Shown here piece after piece: positions 1-14,168 of a DNA stretch of 64,000 nucleotides. The position numbers and the translations under genes are program-made. The notes below the pieces were generated by a model. That model saw only the letters and a program-made list of their open reading frames with translations, did no database searches and was not told the DNA's origin. The stretch spans positions 1,302,001-1,366,000 of the forward strand of contig NZ_CP027783.1 of the NCBI RefSeq assembly GCF_003795125.1, in the 5' to 3' direction. The DNA is from Tetragenococcus osmophilus. Lineage in GTDB: Bacteria; Bacillota; Bacilli; Lactobacillales; Enterococcaceae. Position 1 is the first letter of the stretch, and every line of letters starts with the position of its first letter.

Positions 1-1599
1 GGCTCCACTCAAGACTCAGGTGAAAGTGAGGGAGGAGAAGGCGCTTCTGGTACTTCTGGAAACGAATATACCTTTATTGAAAGACAAGAAATGCCAACAG
101 CGGATATATCTCAAGCAACAGATACCGTTAGTTTTTCTGCATTAAATAATATCTACGAAGGAATCTATCGTTTAGACGAAAATGATGAGCCTCAACCTGC
201 CGGGGCAGCTGAAGAAGCAGAAGTTTCCGAAGATGGACTAACTTATAATATTCAATTACGTGAAGATGCGACTTGGTCAAATGGGGATCCAGTTACAGCA
301 GATGATTATGTTTATGGTTGGCAACGAACTGTAGATCCAGAAACGGCTTCAGAATTTGCTTATATGTTTGAACCGGTTGAAAATGCAACCGATGTAAACA
401 ATGGGGATGCCGATCTTGATGAATTAGGAATTGAAGCGGTTAACGATCATGAATTAGAAATTACATTAGAACAACCGACAGAATATTTTGATAGTTTGTT
501 AGCATTCCCATCGTTCTTCCCGCAAAATCAAGAAGTCGTAGAAGAAAACGGCGATGATTATGCTCAAACAAGTGAAAATATGGTATACAATGGCCCGTTT
601 GTCTTGGCTGATTTTGACGGCCCTGGTTCAGATACCGAGTGGGCGTACGATAAAAATGAAGACTACTGGGATGCAGACAATGTTTCCTTAGATCGTGTAA
701 ATGTCAATGTGGTTAAAGAAGCATCAACGGCTTTGAATTTATTCCAAGACGGTCAAGCAGATGAAATTACATTAAGTGGTGAATTAGCACAGCAAATGGC
801 TAATGACCCAGATTATCTCACGGTTCCTCAGGCATCTACTTTTTATATGGAGATGAATCAAGACGATGAAGATTCACCATTTAACAATGAAAACTTCCGT
901 AAAGCCATCTCTTATGCGATTGATCGTGAATCTTTAGTTAATTCAATTTTGGCTGATGGATCGATTGAACCTTCTGGCTTAGTTCCAAGTGATATGAGTG
1001 AAAACCCGGAAACGGGCGATGATTTCACTGAAGATGCTGGTAGCCAGATAGAGTATGATCCAGAACAAGCACAAGAATATTGGGAACAGGCTCAAGAGGA
1101 ACTAGGAGAAGAAGTGGAAGTAGATATCTTAGCAGATGATACAGATGGTTCTCGTCGAGCTCAAGAATTTCTACAAGAGACGATTCAAGATAACTTGGAT
1201 GGTGTAACTGTTACGTTAAGTCCGGTACCTTTCTCGGTTCGCTTAGACCGTTCAACTTCTGGTGATTTTGATATGGCCCTAAGTGGTTGGGGAGCTGATT
1301 ATTCTGATCCAAGTAGTTTCCTTGATCTATTCCAAACAGATGGGTCAAATAACCATGGGAACTATAGTAGTGAAGAATACGACCAACAAATCGAAGAAGC
1401 AACGGGTGAAAATGCGAACGATCCGGAAGCGCGTTGGAACAACTATGTAGAAGCTGAAAATATTATCATGGATGAACAAGGCGTCGTTCCATTGTATCAA
1501 AATGCTGAAGCTCATCTAAGAGCAGATAGAGTAAACGGGGTTGTTTCTCATGCTGCGGGCGCACAGTATGATTTTAAGTGGGTAACAGTAGACGAATAA
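1..1599 (+). CDS. oppA: Oligopeptide ABC transporter substrate-binding protein OppA (5' end outside window)
   Basis: The reading frame is open from base 1 to the stop at 1597-1599, so the signal peptide and lipobox lie upstream of the window. The first 20 or so visible residues are a Gly/Ser/Glu-rich linker, typical of the stretch that follows the lipidated cysteine in these lipoproteins. The rest matches the SBP_bac_5 (OppA) fold, including the segments EDGLTYNIQLREDATWSNG and FRKAISYAIDRESLVNSIL. It would capture extracellular peptides and deliver them to OppBC. The protein is very rich in Asp and Glu, which fits a salt-adapted surface. oppB follows after a terminator and an antisense gene, so oppA can be transcribed separately and in excess of the transporter. 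Confidence 0.93.
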   Translation, partial: GSTQDSGESEGGEGASGTSGNEYTFIERQEMPTADISQATDTVSFSALNNIYEGIYRLDENDEPQPAGAAEEAEVSEDGLTYNIQLREDATWSNGDPVTADDYVYGWQRTVDPETASEFAYMFEPVENATDVNNGDADLDELGIEAVNDHELEITLEQPTEYFDSLLAFPSFFPQNQEVVEENGDDYAQTSENMVYNGPFVLADFDGPGSDTEWAYDKNEDYWDADNVSLDRVNVNVVKEASTALNLFQDGQADEITLSGELAQQMANDPDYLTVPQASTFYMEMNQDDEDSPFNNENFRKAISYAIDRESLVNSILADGSIEPSGLVPSDMSENPETGDDFTEDAGSQIEYDPEQAQEYWEQAQEELGEEVEVDILADDTDGSRRAQEFLQETIQDNLDGVTVTLSPVPFSVRLDRSTSGDFDMALSGWGADYSDPSSFLDLFQTDGSNNHGNYSSEEYDQQIEEATGENANDPEARWNNYVEAENIIMDEQGVVPLYQNAEAHLRADRVNGVVSHAAGAQYDFKWVTVDE

Positions 1600-1626
1600 T
1601 TTTTATGGCGATTTTATGATAAAATA

Positions 1627-1667
1627 GACTGAGACAATAGCTGCTAAATAGCAGTGTCTCAGTCTTT
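1627..1667. terminator. Bidirectional terminator between oppA and the DUF3899 gene
   Basis: A perfect 10-bp stem, GACTGAGACA with TGTCTCAGTC, encloses a smaller CTGCT/AGCAG hairpin and is followed by TTT on the plus strand and TATTTTAT on the minus strand. It can end oppA transcripts from the left and the convergent DUF3899 gene from the right. Confidence 0.85.
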
Positions 1668-1672
1668 ACTAC

Positions 1673-2008
1673 TTAAAAAGCTGCTAACAATAACGCTAGC
1701 AAGCTTAATAAAAATAATATTCCTGCAGGTTCCAGCCAAAAACGAAAGCTAGTACGGCCGACTTCTGACAATTTCATACTTTCTTTTTTTGTTTTTTTAT
1801 TTCTTTTCTTGAAAGCTCGTTGAAAATTATCGAAAAATCCGGAAGAAAAGACCCAAAGAAATCCGCCAATAATTAGAAAAAACAAGGTGAATAGAAATAA
1901 ATTATTGGACAAAACAGTAAAGGAAAATTCGTTTTGAATGATTGTAAGTAATAGGCTGACTAACAGACTGGCTAGGCTGATAATCCAAGAACTTTTTTTT
2001 ATTTGCAT
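1673..2008 (-). CDS. DUF3899 family small membrane protein
   Basis: A 111-residue protein with two hydrophobic segments near the N-terminus (about residues 8-25 and 35-55), a strongly basic middle (KKRNKKTKKE) and a hydrophobic C-terminal segment. The motif SGFFDNFQRAFKK followed by a basic patch fits DUF3899, a Firmicutes membrane family of unknown function. The minus-strand ribosome site AAGGAAG lies just before the start. It is transcribed against the opp genes and sits between oppA and oppB, so it interrupts an otherwise co-directional transporter locus. No function can be assigned. Confidence 0.7.
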   Translation of the reverse strand: MQIKKSSWIISLASLLVSLLLTIIQNEFSFTVLSNNLFLFTLFFLIIGGFLWVFSSGFFDNFQRAFKKRNKKTKKESMKLSEVGRTSFRFWLEPAGILFLLSLLALLLAAF

Positions 2009-2097
2009 GGTAGCTTCCTTTCTTAATGATAAAAATATAGAGATAGGTTTAATGTATAAAAATATTGTTGAGAAGTCAAAAATTAGGGGGGAAAAAC

Positions 2098-3039
2098 GTG
2101 AGTGATTTTGTAAAATATTTACTGCAGCGTGTGTTTTTTATGGCAGTGACATTATGGTTGATTGCCACCATTACTTTTTTTATGATGCAGTTTTTACCTG
2201 GAACACCATATACCAATGCTGAACGATTAACTCCAGAGCAAATTGCTCTTTTAAATGAGCAAATGGGGCTTGATCAGCCAGTAATCGTGCAATATGGAGA
2301 ATATTTACTAAACCTTCTGCAAGGAGACTTTGGAATTTCTTTCCAATTTAAGAATCAACCTGTAGCTAACCTTTTAGGTGATCGGATTGGACCTTCTGTT
2401 CAATTAGGACTTCAAGCTATTGGATTTGGAACAGTATTTGGGATTATTTTAGGTACAATTTCAGCAATGAAGCAAAATACTTGGGTGGATACATTAAGTA
2501 CTTTAGTGGCTATCTTAGGTCGTTCCATTCCGAACTTTGTGTTTGCTGTTTTATTGCAATACATCTTTGCTATTAGACTAGAAATTCTACCAATTGCTCA
2601 ATGGGATAGTTTTGCCTATACGATTCTACCAACTTTAGCTTTGGCAATGTCACCATTAGCGGATTCGGCTCGTTTTATACGGACCGAAATGGTAGAAGTA
2701 CTACACAGTGATCAAGTCGAATTGGCTAAATCAAAGGGATTAAGTCGTTGGGAAAGAGCTTTTAAGCATGGATTGCGTAATAGCCTCATCCCTATTTTGA
2801 CTTTGCTTGGTCCCTTAGCCGTAGCATTAATGACGGGTTCACTTGTTATTGAGAACATTTTTGCAATCCCTGGAATTGGTGATCAGTTTGTTAAGTCAAT
2901 TATGACCAATGATTATCCGACAATTATGGCAGTGACGATTCTTTACTCTACACTGTTAGTGACGATTATCTTTGTGGTTGACGTACTATATGGCATTATA
3001 GATCCTCGTATTCGTATTTCAGAAGGGAGTCGTGGATGA
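2098..3039 (+). CDS. oppB: Oligopeptide ABC transporter permease OppB
   Basis: A 313-residue membrane permease of the BPD_transp_1 family. It has an N-terminal membrane anchor, the typical MQFLPGTPY segment, and the EAA loop near LAKSKGLSRWERAFKHGLRN that contacts the ATPases. I chose the GTG start at 2098 because the strong ribosome site AGGGGGGAA lies 5-6 bases before it. An upstream in-frame ATG at 2065 lacks such a site. It forms the peptide channel with OppC. Its stop overlaps the start of oppC by four bases (ATGA), which suggests translational coupling. Confidence 0.93.
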   Translation: MSDFVKYLLQRVFFMAVTLWLIATITFFMMQFLPGTPYTNAERLTPEQIALLNEQMGLDQPVIVQYGEYLLNLLQGDFGISFQFKNQPVANLLGDRIGPSVQLGLQAIGFGTVFGIILGTISAMKQNTWVDTLSTLVAILGRSIPNFVFAVLLQYIFAIRLEILPIAQWDSFAYTILPTLALAMSPLADSARFIRTEMVEVLHSDQVELAKSKGLSRWERAFKHGLRNSLIPILTLLGPLAVALMTGSLVIENIFAIPGIGDQFVKSIMTNDYPTIMAVTILYSTLLVTIIFVVDVLYGIIDPRIRISEGSRG

Positions 3040-4082
3040 TGGAAGATAAAAATTATACAAATGACCAATTAGCTCAAATCCCAGCCTCTGAGTTTGAACC
3101 GTTGGAAAAAAATACGACTGTCGAACGAGAAGCTATTACGGCTCCTTCATTGAGTTTTTTACAGGATTCATGGCGCCGTCTGAAGAAAAATAAGGCGGCT
3201 GTGATTTCAACAATTTTTCTTTTGATTGTATTATTAATTTCAGTAGTGACTATTTTTGCTTCTCCCCATGATCCTACTGAACAAAATGCAAGTTATATCA
3301 ATCTACCTCCTAAAATTCCGGGAATTGATATCAATGGGTTAAACGGAGTTTCTGAAGTTGGGGGCCAAATGGTTGATCGGTACGAAGCTGCTGATGTTCC
3401 TGATGATGTTCATTTTTATCTTGGAACAGATGCGCTAGGAAGAGATTTATTGAGTCGTTTGTTCATGGGCGTAAGGATCTCCTTATTAATTGCTTTTATT
3501 GCAGCTACATTGGATATTATTTTTGGTGTGACCTATGGGGTTATCTCTGGACTATTAGGTGGTAGAGTCGATAATGTTATGCAGCGAATAATAGAAGTTC
3601 TATCCGGAATTCCGAATTTAGTGGTAATGATTTTGATGTTAGTTGTATTTAATCCTGGTATCTTTTCTATTATAGCAGCTATGGCCATTACCAATTGGAT
3701 ACCTATGGCTCGTATTGTTCGAGCTCAAACGCTTAAGTTAAAAGACCAAGAGTTTGTTTTAGCGGCAACGACATTAGGAGAAAGCAAGTCTAAGATTGCT
3801 TTTAAACATGTTTTACCTAATATTTCTAGTGTGATTGTTATTCAAATGATGTTTAGTATTCCAGAAGCAATCTTTTTTGAAGCATTTCTAAGTTTTATTG
3901 GTATAGGGCTAACGCCTCCAACTGCTTCTCTTGGTACGTTGTTAAATGAGGGTTATAAGACATTTATGTTCTTACCTTATCAAGTGGTAATCCCCGCTGT
4001 TGTTCTTTCAGTCATTATGATTGGCTTTAACTTATTAGCTGATGGGCTACGTGATGCGTTTGACCCGCAGATGAAGGAGTGA
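3036..4082 (+). CDS. oppC: Oligopeptide ABC transporter permease OppC
   Basis: A 348-residue permease and partner of OppB. An N-terminal cytoplasmic tail of about 50 residues (OppC_N) precedes the first membrane segment. An extracellular loop follows, containing LGTDALGRDLLSRL, the usual OppC signature, and then the permease domain with the EAA loop at LAATTLGESKSKIAFKHVLPN. The start overlaps the oppB stop. oppD follows immediately, so OppB, C, D and F are translated from one message. Confidence 0.93.
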   Translation: MMEDKNYTNDQLAQIPASEFEPLEKNTTVEREAITAPSLSFLQDSWRRLKKNKAAVISTIFLLIVLLISVVTIFASPHDPTEQNASYINLPPKIPGIDINGLNGVSEVGGQMVDRYEAADVPDDVHFYLGTDALGRDLLSRLFMGVRISLLIAFIAATLDIIFGVTYGVISGLLGGRVDNVMQRIIEVLSGIPNLVVMILMLVVFNPGIFSIIAAMAITNWIPMARIVRAQTLKLKDQEFVLAATTLGESKSKIAFKHVLPNISSVIVIQMMFSIPEAIFFEAFLSFIGIGLTPPTASLGTLLNEGYKTFMFLPYQVVIPAVVLSVIMIGFNLLADGLRDAFDPQMKE

Positions 4083-4084
4083 GT

Positions 4085-5146
4085 ATGGTGAAAAAAATTT
4101 TAGAAGTAAAAGATTTAGAAATCTCATTTACTACCTTCGCTGGAAAAGTTCAAGCGATTCGAGATGTAAGTTTTGATTTGCATGAAGGAGAGACACTTGC
4201 GATTGTAGGGGAATCTGGTAGTGGTAAATCTGTTACAACCAGAAGTATTATGGGACTCTTATCTAGTAATGCAGTTGTAGAAAATGGCGAAATCGTATTT
4301 AATGGCGAAGATATCCTGAAAAAATCCGAGAAACAAATGCAAAAAATTCGAGGAAAAGATATTTCTATGATTTTTCAGGATCCGATGACTTCACTTGATC
4401 CGACAATGAAAATTGGCAAACAAGTTGCTGAGTCTTTATTGAAGCATACAAAAGTTTCAAAAAAAGACGCTTTACAAAAGGCTTTGGAACTTTTAGAACT
4501 TGTGGGGATACCTAATGCTAAGAATCGGTTAAAAAATTACCCGCATCAATTTTCTGGTGGCCAACGTCAACGGATCATCATTGCAGTTGCTTTAATTTGT
4601 TATCCAGAAATATTAATTGCAGATGAACCGACGACTGCTTTAGACGTCACTATTCAGGCTCAAATTTTAGAACTACTAAAGGATATTCAGCAAAAAGTAA
4701 ACTCTTCCATTATTTTTATTACTCATGACTTAGGAGTAGTTGCTAATGTTGCAGATCGAGTGGCTGTGATGTACGCTGGAAAAATTGTGGAAATTGGAAC
4801 TGCTGAAGAAATCTTTTATAATCCGCAACATCCGTATACTTGGGGATTATTAGGCTCTATGCCAACTTTGGAAGGAACAAGCGATCGGTTATATGCCATC
4901 CCTGGAACCCCTCCAGATTTATTAGAACCTCCTGTTGGGGACGCTTTTTATCCTAGAAACGAATATGCGATGAAAATCGATACAGAAAAGCAGCCTCCAT
5001 TTTTTGAATTATCAAGTACCCATAAAGCAGCGACTTGGTTATTAGCGCCACAAGCGCCTAAAGTAGAGCCTCCGCAAGAGATTTTAAATCGTTGGGAAGA
5101 ATTTAGGCAGAAAAATCAAAATCAGCCGGAAATGGAGGAAAGTTAA
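4085..5146 (+). CDS. oppD: Oligopeptide ABC transporter ATP-binding protein OppD
   Basis: A 353-residue ATPase. Walker A is GESGSGKS, the signature is FSGGQRQR, Walker B is LIADEPTTALD and the H-loop is THDLGVV. The C-terminal oligo_HPY extension is present, but the cysteines that often bind an iron-sulfur cluster in this family are absent (GDAFYPRNEYAMK), as I recall for lactococcal OppD. I place the start at ATG 4085, five bases after AAGGAG. The earlier GTG at 4079 overlaps that ribosome site. It powers peptide import together with OppF. Confidence 0.93.
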   Translation: MVKKILEVKDLEISFTTFAGKVQAIRDVSFDLHEGETLAIVGESGSGKSVTTRSIMGLLSSNAVVENGEIVFNGEDILKKSEKQMQKIRGKDISMIFQDPMTSLDPTMKIGKQVAESLLKHTKVSKKDALQKALELLELVGIPNAKNRLKNYPHQFSGGQRQRIIIAVALICYPEILIADEPTTALDVTIQAQILELLKDIQQKVNSSIIFITHDLGVVANVADRVAVMYAGKIVEIGTAEEIFYNPQHPYTWGLLGSMPTLEGTSDRLYAIPGTPPDLLEPPVGDAFYPRNEYAMKIDTEKQPPFFELSSTHKAATWLLAPQAPKVEPPQEILNRWEEFRQKNQNQPEMEES

Positions 5147-6105
5147 TGAGCAAAGTTTTATTAGATGTAAAAAACTTAAAACAATATTTTAATGAAGGCC
5201 GTAAAAATGAAGTTAAAGCGGTCGATGATATTACTTTTCATATCTATGAAGGCGAAACATTTGGTTTAGTTGGTGAATCAGGTAGTGGAAAATCTACTAC
5301 TGGACGAACCATCATTCGTTTGAATCGACCAACTGGAGGTACGGTGGAATTTGATGGCAAAAACGTCATGGATTTAAATGGTAAAAAAGACATGAACGCT
5401 TTTCGTCGTGATGTTCAAATGATCTTTCAAGACCCTTATGCTTCTTTAAATGGACGGATGAAAGTCCGCGATATTATTGCTGAGGGGATTGATATTAATG
5501 GATTGGCAGAGTCAGAAAATCAACGAAATGAGCGAGTTAATGACCTTCTAAGAACAGTGGGACTAAACCCTAACCACGGTACTCGTTATCCTCACGAATT
5601 CTCTGGAGGACAACGGCAACGAATTGGGGTTGCACGCGCTTTAGCTGTTGATCCTAAATTTATTATTTGTGATGAACCTATTTCCGCACTGGATGTTTCA
5701 ATTCAAGCTCAAGTGGTTAATTTATTACAAGATCTGCAAAAAGAACATAATTTAACTTATTTATTTATTGCTCATGATTTGTCTATGGTTAAACATATTA
5801 GTGATCGTATTGGTGTAATGCATGATGGGAAATTGTTAGAAGTAGGTACGAGTGATGACATATATTATTATGGTGTTCATCCTTATACAGAAAGTTTGCT
5901 TTCCGCTATTCCATTGCCGGATCCTAATTATGAACGGACGAGAACAAGAATTAAATATAGTGGTGAGCAAGATGATCCAAATGTTAATAGACAGATGATA
6001 GAAATCGAAGCTGGTCATTATGTTTATGCAACAGAGGAAGAAAAAACAAAGTACCAAGAAAAACTTGCAAATAAAAAGGCCACTGCTGATAAGCAAGCTA
6101 TGTAG
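5146..6105 (+). CDS. oppF: Oligopeptide ABC transporter ATP-binding protein OppF
   Basis: A 319-residue ATPase, the second nucleotide-binding subunit of the Opp importer. Walker A is GESGSGKSTTGR, the signature FSGGQRQRIGVARA, Walker B FIICDEPISALD and the H-loop IAHDLSMVKHI. The start overlaps the oppD stop by one base and is preceded by GGAGGA. The 60 bases after the stop contain no clear terminator, so transcription can continue into the TnpB-derived gene downstream. This matters for the feedback model of that locus. Confidence 0.94.
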   Translation: MSKVLLDVKNLKQYFNEGRKNEVKAVDDITFHIYEGETFGLVGESGSGKSTTGRTIIRLNRPTGGTVEFDGKNVMDLNGKKDMNAFRRDVQMIFQDPYASLNGRMKVRDIIAEGIDINGLAESENQRNERVNDLLRTVGLNPNHGTRYPHEFSGGQRQRIGVARALAVDPKFIICDEPISALDVSIQAQVVNLLQDLQKEHNLTYLFIAHDLSMVKHISDRIGVMHDGKLLEVGTSDDIYYYGVHPYTESLLSAIPLPDPNYERTRTRIKYSGEQDDPNVNRQMIEIEAGHYVYATEEEKTKYQEKLANKKATADKQAM

Positions 6106-6165
6106 CTTCATTTTATATTTCATAAAGTAAGACAAGTTTTTTAAAGGCTCACAGAGGTGAACTTA

Positions 6166-7131
6166 GTGAAAGTATTAAAGGGTTATAAATTTCGTATTTA
6201 TCCAAATGAAGAGCAAATACAATTCTTTATTCAGACTTTCGGTTGTGTACGATTTACTTATAATTGTTTACTATGTGCACGGAAGGAGTCTTTACAAAAG
6301 AGAAGCTATGAAACAAAACTTTCTCCAGCACATTTAAAAAAAGACTATCCGTTTTTGAAACAAGCGGATAGTCTAGCTTTAGCTAATGCGCAACGCAATT
6401 TAGATCGTGCTTTTAAAAATTACTTTAGCAAAAGAATGGGTTATCCAAAATTTAAGACGAAAAACAATACTTGGCAGTCTTATACAACCAACAATCAAAA
6501 AAATACGATTTATCTGGTGGGAAAACAATTGAAGTTGCCCAAGTTGAAATCACTAGTCTCTGTGAACTTGCATAGGGAAGTTTTTGGAGAAATAAAGTCA
6601 GCAACGATATCTGCAAAAAATAATCAGTTATTTTTTGTGTCCCTTCTTTGCTTGGAAGAAGTGTTTCCTTTACCAAAAACTGGAAAGGCCATAGGAATAG
6701 CTTATTGTCCTAAACATTTAGTCCAATTAACTTCGGATAGGTCTTTGCCGGTGTACGAGTGCAAAGGAGTTCAACATCGATTAAAAAGGGCTAATAAAAA
6801 ATTGGAGCTTCGTGCAAAAGTAGCAAAGAAACGTGCGGTAGTGGTTAAGCAAGCAAAAAACTACCAAAAACAAAAACATAAAGTACAAAAATTAACTGTG
6901 AAAAAAAATAATCAAAAAAGAAATTATATAGATCAGTTAACTCATCTTTTAGTCCATGAATATGATTCTATTTATTTGGAAGAAAATCCCCATTTTATCG
7001 ATAATACTCATTTTTTAGAAGCTGATTGGCATCATTTTTTGCGTACTATTCGTTATAAAGCGCACTGGTATAATAAGAAATTGATATTTGTTGAAGATGT
7101 CAAAAAATTTGATGAATTTGTTATGAACTGA
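6166..7131 (+). CDS. TnpB-like nuclease-dead protein (TldR candidate) next to oppF
   Basis: A 321-residue homologue of IS605-type TnpB. The N-terminus (YKFRIYPNEEQ, then VRFTYN) is the usual helix-turn-helix start of the family, and the middle aligns with the core of TnpB. The nuclease is broken. The first RuvC aspartate, normally in GIDLG, is alanine here (GIAYC, codon 179, GCT). The RuvC-II glutamate is kept (IYLEEN, about residues 272-273). The protein stops at KKFDEFVMN, before the zinc finger and the last RuvC aspartate. The rest of the frame is intact over more than 300 codons, which argues against recent decay. I see no tnpA beside it. The start at GTG 6166 is chosen because AGAGG lies eight bases upstream. 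This fits the oppF-associated TldR group of RNA-guided repressors; an inactive transposon remnant is the alternative. Confidence 0.8.
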   Translation: MKVLKGYKFRIYPNEEQIQFFIQTFGCVRFTYNCLLCARKESLQKRSYETKLSPAHLKKDYPFLKQADSLALANAQRNLDRAFKNYFSKRMGYPKFKTKNNTWQSYTTNNQKNTIYLVGKQLKLPKLKSLVSVNLHREVFGEIKSATISAKNNQLFFVSLLCLEEVFPLPKTGKAIGIAYCPKHLVQLTSDRSLPVYECKGVQHRLKRANKKLELRAKVAKKRAVVVKQAKNYQKQKHKVQKLTVKKNNQKRNYIDQLTHLLVHEYDSIYLEENPHFIDNTHFLEADWHHFLRTIRYKAHWYNKKLIFVEDVKKFDEFVMN

Positions 7132-7219
7132 AAGGGACGTCAGGGATCGCCTAGGTTATAGAAAAAATCTTAAGATTTTTGTTTCTAGGAATATTGTTCA
7201 CTAATTATAAAGAACCGTA
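7050..7219 (+). ncRNA. Predicted guide RNA (omega-RNA-like scaffold plus short guide) for the TldR
   Basis: In TnpB systems the guide RNA overlaps the 3' end of the gene and runs past the stop codon, with the guide at its 3' end. Here the bases after the stop hold a conserved-looking segment (GGGACGTCAGGGATCGC). A hairpin follows, closed by CCTAG 7150-7154 with CTAGG 7185-7189 and containing a perfect inner stem, 7163-7170 with 7173-7180. The likely scaffold end is at GTTCAC (7201), which leaves TAATTATAAAGAACCGTA (7202-7219) as the guide, directly before the terminator. An alternative is that the guide starts right after the hairpin at 7190. The 5' end at 7050 is a rough estimate. Confidence 0.6.
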
Positions 7220-7253
7220 AAGGGAACTGGATGTCTCATCCAGTTCCCTTTTT
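7220..7253 (+). terminator. Strong intrinsic terminator closing the opp-TldR-guide RNA transcript
   Basis: A perfect 14-bp stem (AAGGGAACTGGATG with CATCCAGTTCCCTT) with a TCT loop is followed by a T-run. It starts directly after the presumed guide and so would define the 3' end of the guide RNA. Confidence 0.92.
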
Positions 7254-7300
7254 ATGGGAGCTTTATATGAATGTTAACCTTATGGAAATTAGTCCAATTG

Positions 7301-7329
7301 TTGCCATCAGTATAAATTTACGTTATACT
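7301..7329 (+). promoter_or_regulatory. Sigma-A promoter of the M-box/mgtE transcript
   Basis: TTGCCA at 7301-7306 and TATACT at 7324-7329 are separated by 17 bases. Transcription would start near 7336, just before the M-box. Confidence 0.75.
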
Positions 7330-7346
7330 GAATTTGAAATAAAAAT

Positions 7347-7558
7347 AACCTGTTAGGTGAGGTTACTATACAGAGGAACGCTACTGCCCGGAAATATCGA
7401 AAGATGCCAACGTGGTTAACAAAAACATCCGACCTAAGGAGTTTTTAATGTAGCTGGGTTTCCCCCTAGGCTGTATTGAGCCAAAACTCAACGAAGAGGT
7501 GTGCTTTGCAGTTGAATATATAGCAATGTAAACACGCTTTTAGTAGCGTGCTTTTTTA
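7347..7558 (+). promoter_or_regulatory. M-box (ykoK) magnesium riboswitch with terminator
   Basis: The leader carries the conserved M-box blocks in order: GTTAGGTGAGG, then CGCTACTGCCC, then GATGCCAACG, then CCGACCTAAGG, then AATGTAGCTGGG, and finally AACTCAACGAAG. A terminator, CACGCT/AGCGTG with CTTTTTT (7533-7558), follows. A competing TTGC/GCAA pairing just upstream could act as antiterminator. In this family Mg2+ binding favours termination, so mgtE is expressed when Mg2+ is low. Confidence 0.93.
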
Positions 7559-7684
7559 TTATGTAAGTCTTTGCTCTGACTGATAAGTTGTTTTTGGTAA
7601 GATCAGATGATATCGAGATTGGGTGAAGAAAGCAGCCTTGTCCTAACTGGTTCTTAACATGATGGAAGGAGAGATAAAAATAAA

Positions 7685-9046
7685 ATGCAAGAGCTCAAGT
7701 TAGATAAAAGCCAATATTACGAAGCAATTTATCAGGCGGCAAAAGAAAATGATCGTAAGCTATTTCGTAAATTATTCTTACGTCTGCACGACCGTGACCA
7801 ACATGAAGTCTATCATTTATTATACCCTGAAAAAAAGCAGAAAATCGCTAATTTTTTAACACCAGAAGAGTTTTCCGAATTGTTTGAATGGATGGCTATT
7901 GAAGATCAAGAATACGTAGTTTCTCATTTTCCTGAATCATTTGTGGCTAAATTATTCAATAAACTACCTACAGATGATGTAGTGAAGTTTTTAAAACAAA
8001 CGCCTAATATAGATAGACAGTATTTATTAGATTTGATGAATGAAAAAGAAAGGACAAGAGCCACAGAACTATTATCTTATGAGCCAGAAACTGCTGGTTC
8101 CATAATGACCAAAGAATTTGTTTCAGCGAACCAAAATCAAACGTCAAGCGAAGTTATTTCTTTTATCCGAAAAATGGGAAATAAAGCAGAAACAATCTAC
8201 TATATTTATGTATTAGATGATGCAGCGAATTTAGTTGGTGTCTTGTCTTTGCGAGATTTGATTTTGTCTTCAGAAGATGAGATGGTAAAAAACGTGATGT
8301 TTAATCAAGTCGTTTCAGTACCTGTGGATATGGACCAAGAAGAAGTTGCTCAGGTGATTCAAAATTATGACTTACTTGCAGTGCCAGTGCTCAACAATGG
8401 TGTTATGTTAGGAATTGTTACTGTTGATGATGTTATGGATATTCTAGAAAGTGAGGTAACAGAAGACTTTCAAGAATTTGCTGCTATTCGTCGGAATGAA
8501 GATGAACCTAAAGAAGAAAATGCTTTTCAAACAGCTAAACAACGTGCACCTTGGATTGTTATTCTGATTTTTTTGGGTATGCTTACAGGTAGTTTGATTA
8601 GTTTCTTTGAAGAAACATTAGAATCTGTTGTATTATTGGCGGCTTTTATTCCTATGATTATGGATACAGCTGGTAATGTGGGGACCCAATCTTTAGCTGT
8701 TTCTGTTCGTAATTTGACTGTAGAAAAAGAAGAAAAACCTAGCTTTTGGCAAACGTTAAGAAAGGAGTTTGGCGCAGGCATACTAATTGGCCTTGCTGCA
8801 GCAGCTGCGCTTTTCCTTGTTGCCGTTCTTTTTTACCAAAATTTAGTTTTAGCATTTATTGTTAGTGTTTCAGTGTTAATCACTATATCATTTTCTACTG
8901 TAGTAGGAGCGATTATTCCTGCGATTGCAGTGAAGCTAAAAATTGACCCGGCAGTAGCTAGTGGTCCTTTTATTACAACTACAAATGATGCTTTAGGGCT
9001 AATGATTTATTTTACGATTGCTACTAGCTTATTACACGTACTCTGA
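7685..9046 (+). CDS. mgtE: Magnesium transporter MgtE
   Basis: A 453-residue Mg2+ channel. An N-terminal MgtE_N helical domain (about residues 1-130) is followed by two CBS repeats (about 135-255) that sense cytosolic Mg2+. The C-terminal part has five membrane segments and includes the conserved DTAGNVGTQSLAV stretch of the pore. AAGGAGA lies about 12 bases before the ATG. The gene stands alone behind an M-box riboswitch, so its expression should follow cellular Mg2+. Confidence 0.95.
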   Translation: MQELKLDKSQYYEAIYQAAKENDRKLFRKLFLRLHDRDQHEVYHLLYPEKKQKIANFLTPEEFSELFEWMAIEDQEYVVSHFPESFVAKLFNKLPTDDVVKFLKQTPNIDRQYLLDLMNEKERTRATELLSYEPETAGSIMTKEFVSANQNQTSSEVISFIRKMGNKAETIYYIYVLDDAANLVGVLSLRDLILSSEDEMVKNVMFNQVVSVPVDMDQEEVAQVIQNYDLLAVPVLNNGVMLGIVTVDDVMDILESEVTEDFQEFAAIRRNEDEPKEENAFQTAKQRAPWIVILIFLGMLTGSLISFFEETLESVVLLAAFIPMIMDTAGNVGTQSLAVSVRNLTVEKEEKPSFWQTLRKEFGAGILIGLAAAAALFLVAVLFYQNLVLAFIVSVSVLITISFSTVVGAIIPAIAVKLKIDPAVASGPFITTTNDALGLMIYFTIATSLLHVL

Positions 9047-9071
9047 TCGTTTTTCTATAATCTAATGACAA

Positions 9072-9140
9072 AGGACATATCTTTCTTTTAACAATGTTTA
9101 TTGATTTTACGTTGTTAAAGGAAAAATATGTCCTAGTTTT
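9072..9140. terminator. Bidirectional terminator between mgtE and the Nudix gene
   Basis: AGGACATAT at 9072-9080 pairs with ATATGTCCT at 9126-9134, with an internal TTTAACAA/TTGTTAAA stem. T-runs lie on both sides. It serves two convergent genes. Confidence 0.75.
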
Positions 9141-9154
9141 ATAATAAAGGTCGT

Positions 9155-9976
9155 TTAATTCTCGCGAAAATCTTCTTTTAATCGATAAAGTTTTGAAGGT
9201 CGGCCTACACCCGCAGGTCGCTCGCCAACTTCTTCTAAAAAGTCTAGCAGGCTTTTTTTGAAATTGGAATGATCAATAGAACGATAATCTACGCCTAGAA
9301 ATTTAGCAAACACTTTGCGTGCTTCTGTAATGGTGAAAGTTTCTCCCAAAACTTGAAGTACTTGAGGTTCATGGGCCATTTTGTTAGCAATACGATTAAA
9401 AGCCTTAATGATAATCTGATTGTGATCAAAAGCTAAATCATCTTTACCTAGTGATTTTTGAGTTTGTAGGTCAAGGATGATCTCTATTTCTCCACTTGTT
9501 AGATATAATTGATTGTCTTTACGTTCTAAAGTAAACCAGCGTGCTTGGTTGGCGTTATCACCGGCAGAAAGTATTGCTTCTCCAATAAACGCTAGGTAAC
9601 TAACGGTAATAACCCAACCCCGCGGATCACGACCAGGCGTACTAAATGTATGTAGTTGTTCGATATTTTTAGCAGAGATTGTAACTCCTGTCTCTTCTTT
9701 TGTTTCGCGAATAACACTGTCCCCTGTTGATTCGCTGGCGGTAATAAATCCACCTGGCAATGCCCAGGAATTACGATAAGGATTTCCTCGCCTTTGAATT
9801 AAAAGAACTTTGATTTGATCAGTACTTTTATTATAGCATAACAAAACCATATCAACTGTGACCGAAGGGTTTTGGTAGATCGGATGTTCTTGTTTTTTGT
9901 ACCATTCTAAGAATTCTTGTTCGCTTGCGACATGTTGGTAATAATCTTGTTCTTCTTGCTTAGAAGCAAATTCCAT
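9155..9976 (-). CDS. Nudix-domain protein with C-terminal winged helix, NrtR-like
   Basis: A 273-residue protein. The Nudix domain lies at about residues 35-165 with a complete Nudix box (G-x5-E-x7-RE-x2-EE-x-G), so hydrolysis of an ADP-ribose-type substrate is possible. The C-terminal third ends in GRPSKLYRL, the winged-helix tail seen in NrtR-type regulators of NAD metabolism. No NAD biosynthesis gene is adjacent, so the regulatory target is unknown. An alternative is a plain ADP-ribose pyrophosphatase. It is a single gene between a shared terminator and a small membrane protein gene. Confidence 0.8.
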   Translation of the reverse strand: MEFASKQEEQDYYQHVASEQEFLEWYKKQEHPIYQNPSVTVDMVLLCYNKSTDQIKVLLIQRRGNPYRNSWALPGGFITASESTGDSVIRETKEETGVTISAKNIEQLHTFSTPGRDPRGWVITVSYLAFIGEAILSAGDNANQARWFTLERKDNQLYLTSGEIEIILDLQTQKSLGKDDLAFDHNQIIIKAFNRIANKMAHEPQVLQVLGETFTITEARKVFAKFLGVDYRSIDHSNFKKSLLDFLEEVGERPAGVGRPSKLYRLKEDFREN

Positions 9977-10054
9977 AACTTTCCCTCACTTTAACCAAAC
10001 ATATAAAATTAAATATTTGTTGATATTTTAGCATAACTTTTATGACATATGTCT

Positions 10055-10327
10055 TTAATAAAAGATAAAAAATAGGACTAAATTAAAGAAAAATAAAAGC
10101 AAATAAAAAAGCGCAAGTTTTCGATTCTTTTGTACTTGTCGTAGTCCTATCCAAAAAAGAGCAAGTAAAAGCAATATGCGTAAAATTAAGACGACAGGTA
10201 AAAAGAATGTTAACCAGTCTTGAACGTTCATAAAAGCATAGATTTGTGTGTAAAAATTACAAAATAAAGTATGCAAAATTGTAAGTATAAAAAAGATAAA
10301 GACGTGTTGTTTTTGTTTTTTTGTCAT
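10055..10327 (-). CDS. Small membrane protein of unknown function
   Basis: A 90-residue protein with three predicted membrane segments (about residues 8-28, 38-62 and 70-90) and basic loops. AAAGGAG is placed six bases before the start on the minus strand, which supports real translation. I do not recognise the family. An ISLre2-type element has landed about 90 bases upstream and could have altered its promoter. Confidence 0.6.
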   Translation of the reverse strand: MTKKQKQHVFIFFILTILHTLFCNFYTQIYAFMNVQDWLTFFLPVVLILRILLLLALFWIGLRQVQKNRKLALFYLLLFFFNLVLFFIFY

Positions 10328-10417
10328 AAATACTCCTTTAAAAATTAGCTAACGTTATTATAGCAAAAGTTTACTACAACTCAAAAAAATACTTTTATAG
10401 CTAAGAAAATAACGAAT

Positions 10418-10426
10418 CATCATTGA
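10418..10426. repeat. Left copy of the 9-bp target duplication of the ISLre2-type element
   Basis: CATCATTGA at 10418-10426 recurs at 12068-12076, exactly outside the two ends of the element. Confidence 0.9.
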
Positions 10427-12067
10427 CTAAGTGTAAAATTTATTGAGGTATCCTCTAGACGAATAAAAAAGAAACCGTTACTCTATTCATTGGGCTAACA
10501 GGCACTAATGAACAAAGGCGGTTTCTTATGGATTCTATTGTAACAGATTTAGTGGAAGTAATGAAGAAGGAAACGAATTTTTTAGCAAGAGAAAGAGCCA
10601 TGATGATCTTTTTTACAAAACTTATAGCCACGATCACACAATTGGCTTTTCAAACGCTCGATAAAGAAATTTGTGCGCAATGTAAAAAAGAAGGTTTTCG
10701 CGTCGATCGCAAGAGCGAGAGAACCATCACTTTTTTGTTTGGTCCCGTGACCTATGTTCGTCGGCGAATGAAAAATCAAGCCAATGACATTCGTTACCCC
10801 TTAGATGAATTTCTAGGGATTCGAAAAGGTCTTCGTTATAGTTCGCTGGTTCTGCGAAACGTGGCTCAATTAGGCAGTAACATGGTCTATCGTCATGTTT
10901 CTCAAGCGATCGACTGTTTAACTTCTTGGCAGATGAGTCATCAAAATGTGCAACAATTGGTGGTTAAAACGGGCGAATTCATCCAAGCCAGAAGCACGCA
11001 TGAAAGTCGTTATGAGGGCGTGATCCCCAAGAAAAAAGTGCCCTATTTATATCTGGAAGGAGACGGCGTAAAGATCAACGGACAGAAGAAACAATCCCTT
11101 GAAGTTCACCGTTTTCAAGTGTGTGAAGGCAGCCAGAAAGTCGGCAATCGCTCGGAAATGATCGCCCCGCACTTTGTGAGTCATCTGAATCGGCAAAAAG
11201 CATACAAAGAAATGATGGCCTATCTTCAAGCCTATTATGATTTAAGTCATACCGTGGTCATTTCCAATAGTGACGGCGGTTCGGGTTATGAAAAATCGGT
11301 GTTTGATGAACTGGCTTTAGGTTGTTTGCGTCATGAACACTTCCGTGATCGATACCATGTCCACCGGAAAATCAAGGAACGAATGGCTTTTGTTCCCCAG
11401 CTCCAACATCGAATGATACGAGCGATTGAACATTATAATTGGCAAGCAGTCCAGCTTGTTTTAGATACTTCGGAAAGCTTGATTGAAGAAAAGGAGGCCG
11501 AAGCGTTAGAACATTTACGTTTACTGCATCACTACCTTCAAAGAAGTTGGCCTTATTTAAAATCATTGAAAGCACGAGGAATCAGGGACCCTAAAGCTTG
11601 TATTGGCACGATCGAAAGTACCCATCGGAAAATCACCTATCGCATGAAGCGCCAAGGTCGTTTGTGGACAACAACTGGGGCCCAAGCCATGATTCGTGTC
11701 ATTGATAGTTTAAGAAACCAAGAATTGGAAGGTTGGTTGAACCAATACGAAGCCCTTCCGAATGATGTGGTTGTCCAGGAAAAACGTTGGCACGCTATGA
11801 AACGTTGGGTACAGAAAAAGCCTCGTTTCCAAGCCCATGAAGGTGCATTTAAAGGACAGATTGGCGAAGGAAAAGCGAAAAGTGCGCCTTTAGGCCAATT
11901 CGCCAAAGGATTAAATCAATTACTAATGACCCCGAGTTATCTCTAATAAAAACTTGTTTTTGTTAGAGATGATGAGGGCAAACCGAACGAAAGTGAGGTT
12001 GAAAGATAACTTTGTGTCTGCCCCAAAGACGGTTTTTTTATTCAACCTCAATAAACTTGACACATAC
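10427..12067 (+). mobile_element. Complete ISLre2-family insertion sequence
   Basis: The 1641-bp element has imperfect 23-bp terminal inverted repeats, left 10427-10449 and right 12045-12067, with about 19 of 23 matches and the common core TTTATTGAGGT. It is flanked by a 9-bp direct repeat. It holds one intact transposase gene. The right end carries an outward-facing TTGACA (12057-12062), a consensus -35 box pointing toward metG. Confidence 0.93.
10528..11946 (+). CDS. ISLre2 family transposase
   Basis: A 472-residue transposase of the ISLre2 (UPF0236) group. The N-terminus and the RTITFLFGPVTYVRRRM segment, the SNSDGGSGYEKS block (probable catalytic Asp) and the C-terminal ESTHRKITYRMKRQGRLWT stretch are typical of the family. 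The frame is intact and full length, so the element may be active. Codon use is less AT-rich than the neighbours, as expected for an acquired element. Transcription probably depends on a promoter inside the left 100 bases. Confidence 0.93.
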   Translation: MDSIVTDLVEVMKKETNFLARERAMMIFFTKLIATITQLAFQTLDKEICAQCKKEGFRVDRKSERTITFLFGPVTYVRRRMKNQANDIRYPLDEFLGIRKGLRYSSLVLRNVAQLGSNMVYRHVSQAIDCLTSWQMSHQNVQQLVVKTGEFIQARSTHESRYEGVIPKKKVPYLYLEGDGVKINGQKKQSLEVHRFQVCEGSQKVGNRSEMIAPHFVSHLNRQKAYKEMMAYLQAYYDLSHTVVISNSDGGSGYEKSVFDELALGCLRHEHFRDRYHVHRKIKERMAFVPQLQHRMIRAIEHYNWQAVQLVLDTSESLIEEKEAEALEHLRLLHHYLQRSWPYLKSLKARGIRDPKACIGTIESTHRKITYRMKRQGRLWTTTGAQAMIRVIDSLRNQELEGWLNQYEALPNDVVVQEKRWHAMKRWVQKKPRFQAHEGAFKGQIGEGKAKSAPLGQFAKGLNQLLMTPSYL

Positions 12068-12076
12068 CATCATTGA
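12068..12076. repeat. Right copy of the 9-bp target duplication of the ISLre2-type element
   Basis: CATCATTGA, identical to 10418-10426. Finding it exactly at the outer edge of the inverted repeat fixes the element's boundary and shows transposition into this site. Confidence 0.9.
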
Positions 12077-12104
12077 AAAAGGTAGAACAGGTCAAGTAAA
12101 ATTA

Positions 12105-12113
12105 TGTTATACT
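12105..12113 (+). promoter_or_regulatory. Extended -10 promoter of metG
   Basis: TGTTATACT is a TGn-extended -10 box about 40 bases before the metG start. No good -35 lies 17 bases upstream, which is common for extended -10 promoters. Confidence 0.5.
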
Positions 12114-12125
12114 ATAAAAGTATGA

Positions 12126-14168
<2,043 letters not shown>

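Follow-up and report, generated by a model that had tools for sequence, protein, structure and literature searches.

The window, here the whole 64,000-nt stretch of DNA that was analysed (G000:C1:1302001-1366000), derives from a 2.38 Mb genome whose closest named relative is Tetragenococcus muriaticus DSM 15685 (99 % identical). It opens with an oligopeptide transport operon on the + strand, comprising the binding protein gene oppA (1–1599, its 5′ end lying beyond the window), the permease genes oppB (2065–3039) and oppC (3036–4082), and the ATPase genes oppD (4079–5146) and oppF (5146–6105), the last of the opp genes. All five follow from open reading frame (ORF) limits, supported for oppA and oppF by profile matches, for oppB and oppC by orthologues in equal order in other genomes, and for oppD by gene order in other genomes. 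The oppF stop is at 6105, and a gene for a TnpB-like protein, tldR (6166–7131, + strand), begins 60 bp downstream. The initial annotation described this gene as directly following oppF, with no terminator between them and no tnpA, and this holds: scanning the region found no + strand terminator-like stem between oppF and tldR, and no tnpA was seen on reading the ORFs of at least 60 aa listed for positions 1–14000. The promoter scan likewise gave no + strand promoter-like match between the two genes; a separate tldR promoter was considered and rejected, with 23 promoter-like matches in the region where shuffled sequence gave 26.0 on average. Neither of the two small ORFs that overlap the tldR region matched a Pfam family, and a plasmid search with oppA returned no match. 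Downstream lies an M-box magnesium riboswitch (7342–7506; 127 bits), the only Rfam match at gathering scores, upstream of mgtE (7685–9046). Further along, between an NrtR-like NUDIX gene and metG and not adjoining tldR, is a 472-aa UPF0236 family ORF (10528–11946; Pfam PF06782) that is likely a transposase.

The tldR product is a 321-aa, TnpB-like, nuclease-dead protein, read from a GTG start at 6166. A mechanical ORF call opens at GTG 6157, nine bases upstream; the start at 6166, as given in the initial annotation, is preferred because it is preceded by the ribosome-binding site AGAGGTG and fits the family N-terminus MKVLKxYKF. That the frame is TnpB-like was confirmed by the RNA-guided TnpB model NCBIfam NF040570 (153.5 bits, cut-off 100), by Pfam HTH_OrfB_IS605 (55.8 bits, cut-off 21) and by the predicted fold. 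The AlphaFold2 model (mean pLDDT 89.4, pTM 0.56) has as its best structural match the TnpB 8h1j, at a TM score of 0.71. Scores below threshold were obtained for NCBIfam NF038281 (224.2 bits, cut-off 425), Pfam OrfB_IS605 (25.6 bits, cut-off 30.5) and the TNB domain (12.9 bits, cut-off 26.3), and PADLOC and PHROGs matches are to Cas12f/Cas12u, transposase kin or unknown families. The gene is unique in its own genome (one match).

With regard to the nuclease centre, the first RuvC catalytic codon (6700–6702, + strand) is GCT, encoding Ala where the TnpBs of insertion elements have Asp. The Glu is retained (SIYLEENP), and the third RuvC Asp and four zinc Cys are missing through C-terminal truncation, leaving the protein with neither the intact Asp-Glu-Asp centre nor the zinc finger of an active TnpB nuclease. 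This pattern, already read from the single sequence, was borne out in an alignment of 75 rows, made up of 58 TldR-type proteins and 17 TnpBs of insertion elements. The first Asp is missing from 58/58 TldR-type rows, and so relatives with an intact RuvC triad behind oppF, which would speak against a repressor, were looked for and none was present among the aligned rows. The Glu is kept in 36 of the 58, including all 8 Tetragenococcus rows. The insertion-element TnpBs retain Asp and Glu in 17/17 cases, and the third Asp and zinc Cys as well in 16/17. A quick tree with long branches splits 56 TldR-type proteins from the 17 insertion-element TnpBs of the same family (SH-aLRT 99). Within it the Tetragenococcus gene shares both clade and oppF position with enterococcal members, so that the proposed extension of an oppF-associated TldR group to Tetragenococcus is supported; across the family, 37 of the 47 named loci have tldR downstream of oppF.

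A putative guide RNA is encoded at the 3′ end of tldR. Its scaffold (7127–7201, + strand; 5′ limit set at a shared ACTG) overlaps the last tldR codons, ends in GTTCAC and has a 3′ end common to 17 related elements. The predicted guide, TAATTATAAAGAACC, follows at 7202–7216 (+ strand), and an intrinsic terminator at 7220–7253 (+ strand) consists of a 14-bp stem (7220–7250, reported by a consensus scan on the − strand only) and a T-run. The right ends of all 17 related insertion elements read AGTTCAC followed by 17 different sequences, which fits guides set by the insertion site; because GTTCAC directly precedes the guide in each of them, the TldR guide is taken to begin at 7202. In relatives the scaffold conforms to CAGGG-TCGCCTAGG...TTTGTTTCTAGGAA...TTCAC or close variants, overlaps the gene end and is followed by TAATTAT. 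Guide extraction made no use of the guide letters, and recovered TAATTAT in 39/41 regions and 44/47 named loci (overlapping sets, the latter count including two loci missed by the extraction pattern and read by eye); in the remaining five no scaffold was found. Thus, the first seven guide letters are identical in all family members for which a scaffold was found, and most of the family also share AACC at positions 12–15 (window 7213–7216). Covariation within the scaffold is weak (4 of 16 pairs).

Some members depart from this layout. At L221, L227 and L256 (Enterococcus gallinarum, E. canis and Enterococcus sp.) the tldR frame extends into the scaffold, giving a C-terminus of ...RQGSPRG/E, and the scaffold there is therefore partly coding. 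Three named loci (L225, L230 and L260) carry tldR without a scaffold. For two of these, L225 and L260 (E. lemanii and E. alcedinis), the tldR-like genes have neither scaffold nor guide, and a second copy with both occurs in the same genomes (L226 and L229).

In the IS200/IS605-type transposon family, the motif at the left end of an element corresponds to the target-adjacent motif (TAM). TTTAA occupies the left end of 16 of the 17 related elements, the 17th showing no such left end, and on this rule it is read as the TAM. In the source genome, TTTAA followed by six guide letters (TAATTA) occurs at G000:C1:1301850-1301860, 141–151 bases before window base 1. This predicted target lies inside the oppA promoter (TTGATT-17-TACAAT), with the TAM adjoining the −35 box and the seed between the −35 and −10 boxes. 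The site, TTTAATAATTA, is AT-rich and almost palindromic. Just downstream is a CodY-like box, which suggests that a second, nutrient-responsive repressor acts on the same promoter. The guide match after TTTAA is 6 nt in the source genome, with mismatches at guide positions 7, 8, 11, 12 and 15; guide positions 12–15 match oppA in 0–2 of 4 letters. Three further seed matches, two of them 7 nt long, overlap the oppA site without TTTAA, and in 18/34 operons, this one included, a match without TTTAA is longer by one or two letters than the match with it. Due to these longer matches and the near-palindromic site, the strand and exact register of the target, as read from the TAM, are tentative.

The first look for a target was blind to both strand and TAM: a minus-strand copy was noticed first, TAATTAT was then sought before oppA on both strands, and the TAM was read from the elements afterwards, which left a single site in each promoter, in most species on the plus strand. 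Since the seed had been inspected first, the letter-free guide extraction and the count of TTTAA-less matches were made, together with two controls on 34 regions (OppF above 70 %, OppA above 55 %). When the 6-mer was taken at offsets of −100 to +39 along the RNA, an operon's own 6-mer followed TTTAA before oppA in 34/34 at offset 0, and any non-zero offset matched in at most 2 of the 34. In the TAM-blind control TTTAA ranked first among pentamers (34/34), the next reaching 15.

The initial annotation proposed an opp feedback switch with its target still missing, and the predicted site in the operon's own promoter would supply it. Altogether, 46 opp operons were examined, with the site scored within 450 bp before an oppA frame. 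It is present in all 38 operons with tldR behind oppF (37 genomes, two of the operons being a divergent opp operon) and in none of the eight without tldR, the latter having oppA, B, C, D and F matches in order and neither a tldR match nor a scaffold found in the stretch. One genome with a split tldR (G056) was counted as tldR-bearing, and for tldR-less genomes with more than one OppA gene, the one heading oppBCDF was used. The count omits five regions in which no OppF reached 45 % (G036, G044, G022, G049 and G034); G022 is represented by its opp operon. A search of 21 genomes for control operons included 10 in which no OppA gene matched at 1e-60, namely three that have tldR (G034, G036 and G044) and seven that were unusable as controls (G009, G014, G015, G025, G031, G050 and G053). 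Amongst 30 OppA-like genes in further genomes (G049 being assigned from coordinates), three have the site, all heading tldR-bearing operons, and 27 do not. All 39 named loci with an oppA match have the site, as does each of 9 Tetragenococcus genomes. After TTTAA, eight of these nine match the guide over 6 nt and the other over 7 nt, with 6–8 nt elsewhere, and in seven genomes (g9/g3) the TTTAA site is on the opposite strand. On a tree of Opp proteins there are four changes each of tldR and site, which agree in 3/3 independent pairs; with 3–4 independent losses, a sign test reaches only p 0.25. The predicted operator and its putative repressor thus appear to have been gained and lost together.

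Three other explanations deserve consideration. The gene may be a functionless, decaying transposon remnant that by chance came to rest behind oppF, as its truncated C-terminus, the loci with tldR and no scaffold, and a number of broken copies could suggest: tldR is split into two ORFs in G056, carries two stops in G044:C83 and is reduced to remnants in G050. Frequent broken copies, which would have told against function, were looked for, and these few are what was seen. Decay sits poorly with a dN/dS for tldR of 0.03–0.25 in 16 of 17 pairs (the computable ones), indicating purifying selection, although this value exceeds that of oppF in 14 of the 16, several pairs approach saturation at synonymous sites and the value for the closest pair is based on six changes. 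It is also at odds with a single clade found mostly behind oppF, with a guide seed that is invariant wherever a scaffold exists, and with a target retained and lost together with tldR, and we regard it as very improbable. The notion that TTTAATAATTA serves a protein regulator as its operator, or is an element of the promoter, and resembles the guide by chance draws on its AT-rich, near-palindromic character within the promoter spacer. Orthologous tldR-less oppA promoters, however, keep promoter-like boxes and, in 7/8 cases, the CodY-like TTCTGAAAA (found also in 32/34 tldR-bearing promoters), and it is the target site that they are missing. Together with the offset and TAM-blind controls, this leaves such a coincidence scarcely credible.

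A third possibility is that TldR is a working RNA-guided DNA binder with its main target elsewhere, the oppA site being secondary. TTTAA plus TAATTA occurs at six sites in the genome on both strands, against 17 for a backward control; spread over the 4.77 Mb of the two strands combined, six sites give a chance expectation of approximately 0.0009 per 350 bp (both strands). Amongst the five sites other than that at oppA, one (G000:C1:270963) has TTTAA with an 8-nt guide match, TAATTATA, just upstream of a glyoxalase-family gene. Guide letters 8–15 are partly conserved and poorly used at oppA, orphan copies near metG retain the same guide, and longer matches without TTTAA exist: those inspected in the source genome include ones of 14, 13, 12 and 11 nt, three of them inside open frames and the 13-nt match just upstream of a start codon. 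Against this, the glyoxalase site aligns with none of the 4 sites in the sister genome G002, nor with the sites read in other relatives (30 of 56 in all), the remaining four TTTAA sites are inside open frames, and the oppA site recurs in all 9 genomes of the genus. A main target elsewhere is accordingly unlikely, if less so than the two preceding explanations.

Targets for the full-length guide were also sought, and rejected. Amongst the matches listed for 31 genomes, TTWAATAATTATRANNAACC with up to 3 mismatches occurs about as often as its backward control. In the source genome TAATTATAAAGAACC with up to 3 mismatches has at least 334 places, against at least 286 for the control, and with 2 mismatches at most the counts are 23 and 31; the sole exact match is the guide itself and two have one mismatch. 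The 23 places do not include any of the six TTTAA sites, and TTTAA precedes none of the five that were inspected.

Additional copies and sites were observed in several genomes. L231–L234 and L240 hold orphan copies of tldR that retain the guide seed, no opp genes being found in the stretch. The three that were inspected have GNAT genes upstream, and two have RlmN upstream as well; that at L231 has RlmN and GNAT genes upstream and NrtR-like NUDIX and metG genes downstream. At L226, L229, L247, L097 and L116, tldR is also located behind a second, divergent opp-like operon (OppF approximately 50 % identical), in which the site precedes the oppA-like gene on the other strand and, in two that were read, stands just before a TTGACG box. 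A second TTTAATAATTA site occurs approximately 1.9 kb past the first at L211 (position 3418), L239, L248 and L249, that at L211 being located in the oppA–oppB gap, on the minus strand. In G034, the sole OppF found at 1e-80 (50 % identity) is encoded in an operon having a site with a 9-nt match approximately 216 bp before the likely oppA start, with no tldR in the stretch examined; this site is a lead for TldR action in trans.

The reading we favour, and hold to be very probable on the sequence comparisons above, is that TldR is a TnpB without a nuclease centre that would carry as its guide RNA the 3′ end of the transcript encoding it and bind the promoter of its own operon, exerting negative feedback on peptide uptake. 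Here we infer that opp, tldR and the guide RNA would form a single transcript, that the guide RNA, processed from the 3′ end of the tldR message, would load TldR, and that the resulting complex on the oppA promoter would block RNA polymerase. A steric block is suggested by the TAM adjoining the −35 box and the seed lying between the boxes. As tldR and its guide share the strand of oppF and come after it without an intervening promoter-like match, negative feedback is the simplest circuit: rising opp transcription would yield more repressor and thereby restrain peptide uptake. For the family as a whole, it is rather more probable than otherwise that opp operons share an RNA-guided autoregulatory loop, with an 11-bp operator (TTTAA plus a 6-nt seed), a guide formed by the 3′ end of their own message, and operator and repressor gained or lost jointly. 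The site would be on the opposite strand in g9/g3, and orphan tldR copies, kept by some species, could act in trans on a second, divergent opp operon.

TldRs, as nuclease-dead TnpB-like repressors, were reportedly described by Wiegand et al. 2024 (Nature), including an oppF-associated group in enterococci. The present gene resembles that reported group in its nuclease-dead TnpB, its 3′ guide RNA, the lack of tnpA and its position behind oppF in Enterococcaceae; it differs in being a Tetragenococcus member, and in that its predicted oppA-promoter target is derived here from sequence with gain and loss controls. With IS200/IS605 TnpB nucleases (8h1j, 8bf8 and 8iaz) it has in common the predicted fold over residues 1 to approximately 310 and a scaffold 3′ end shared with related elements, but lacks the catalytic Asp residues, zinc finger and transposase, and has a fixed guide rather than guides set by insertion site. 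Amongst other TldRs, the fliC-associated protein of Enterobacter prophages similarly uses a TAM and 6-nt seed for RNA-guided promoter repression, here only predicted; its mapped seed is 6 nt and 6-nt guides suffice for repression (PMC13418256). That protein is phage-borne and silences host flagellin in trans (PMC13418256), whereas the Tetragenococcus gene lies on the chromosome and has its predicted target in the operon that carries it. The csrA-associated TldR is likewise chromosomal and linked to its targeted gene family, but targets sites within fliC frames and has its guide RNA cut by RNase III (PMC13418256), in contrast to the predicted promoter-spacer site in Tetragenococcus.

TldR proteins and the oppF group were thus already known, and the Tetragenococcus member is new; the oppA target and its evolutionary test may already be in print. 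A literature search whose reach did not extend to Wiegand et al. 2024 found no paper that joins TldR, oppF and TnpB, none on TldR in Enterococcus and none combining nuclease-dead TnpB with oligopeptides; for Tetragenococcus and TnpB it gave two unrelated titles. If the favoured reading is true, an everyday nutrient transporter of lactic acid bacteria would be under RNA-guided negative feedback. A domesticated transposon nuclease would then have given rise to a CRISPRi-like circuit whose target is short enough to evolve in the manner of a protein operator. This feedback can be tested directly, also in Tetragenococcus food strains, thanks to the matched operons that have or lack tldR.
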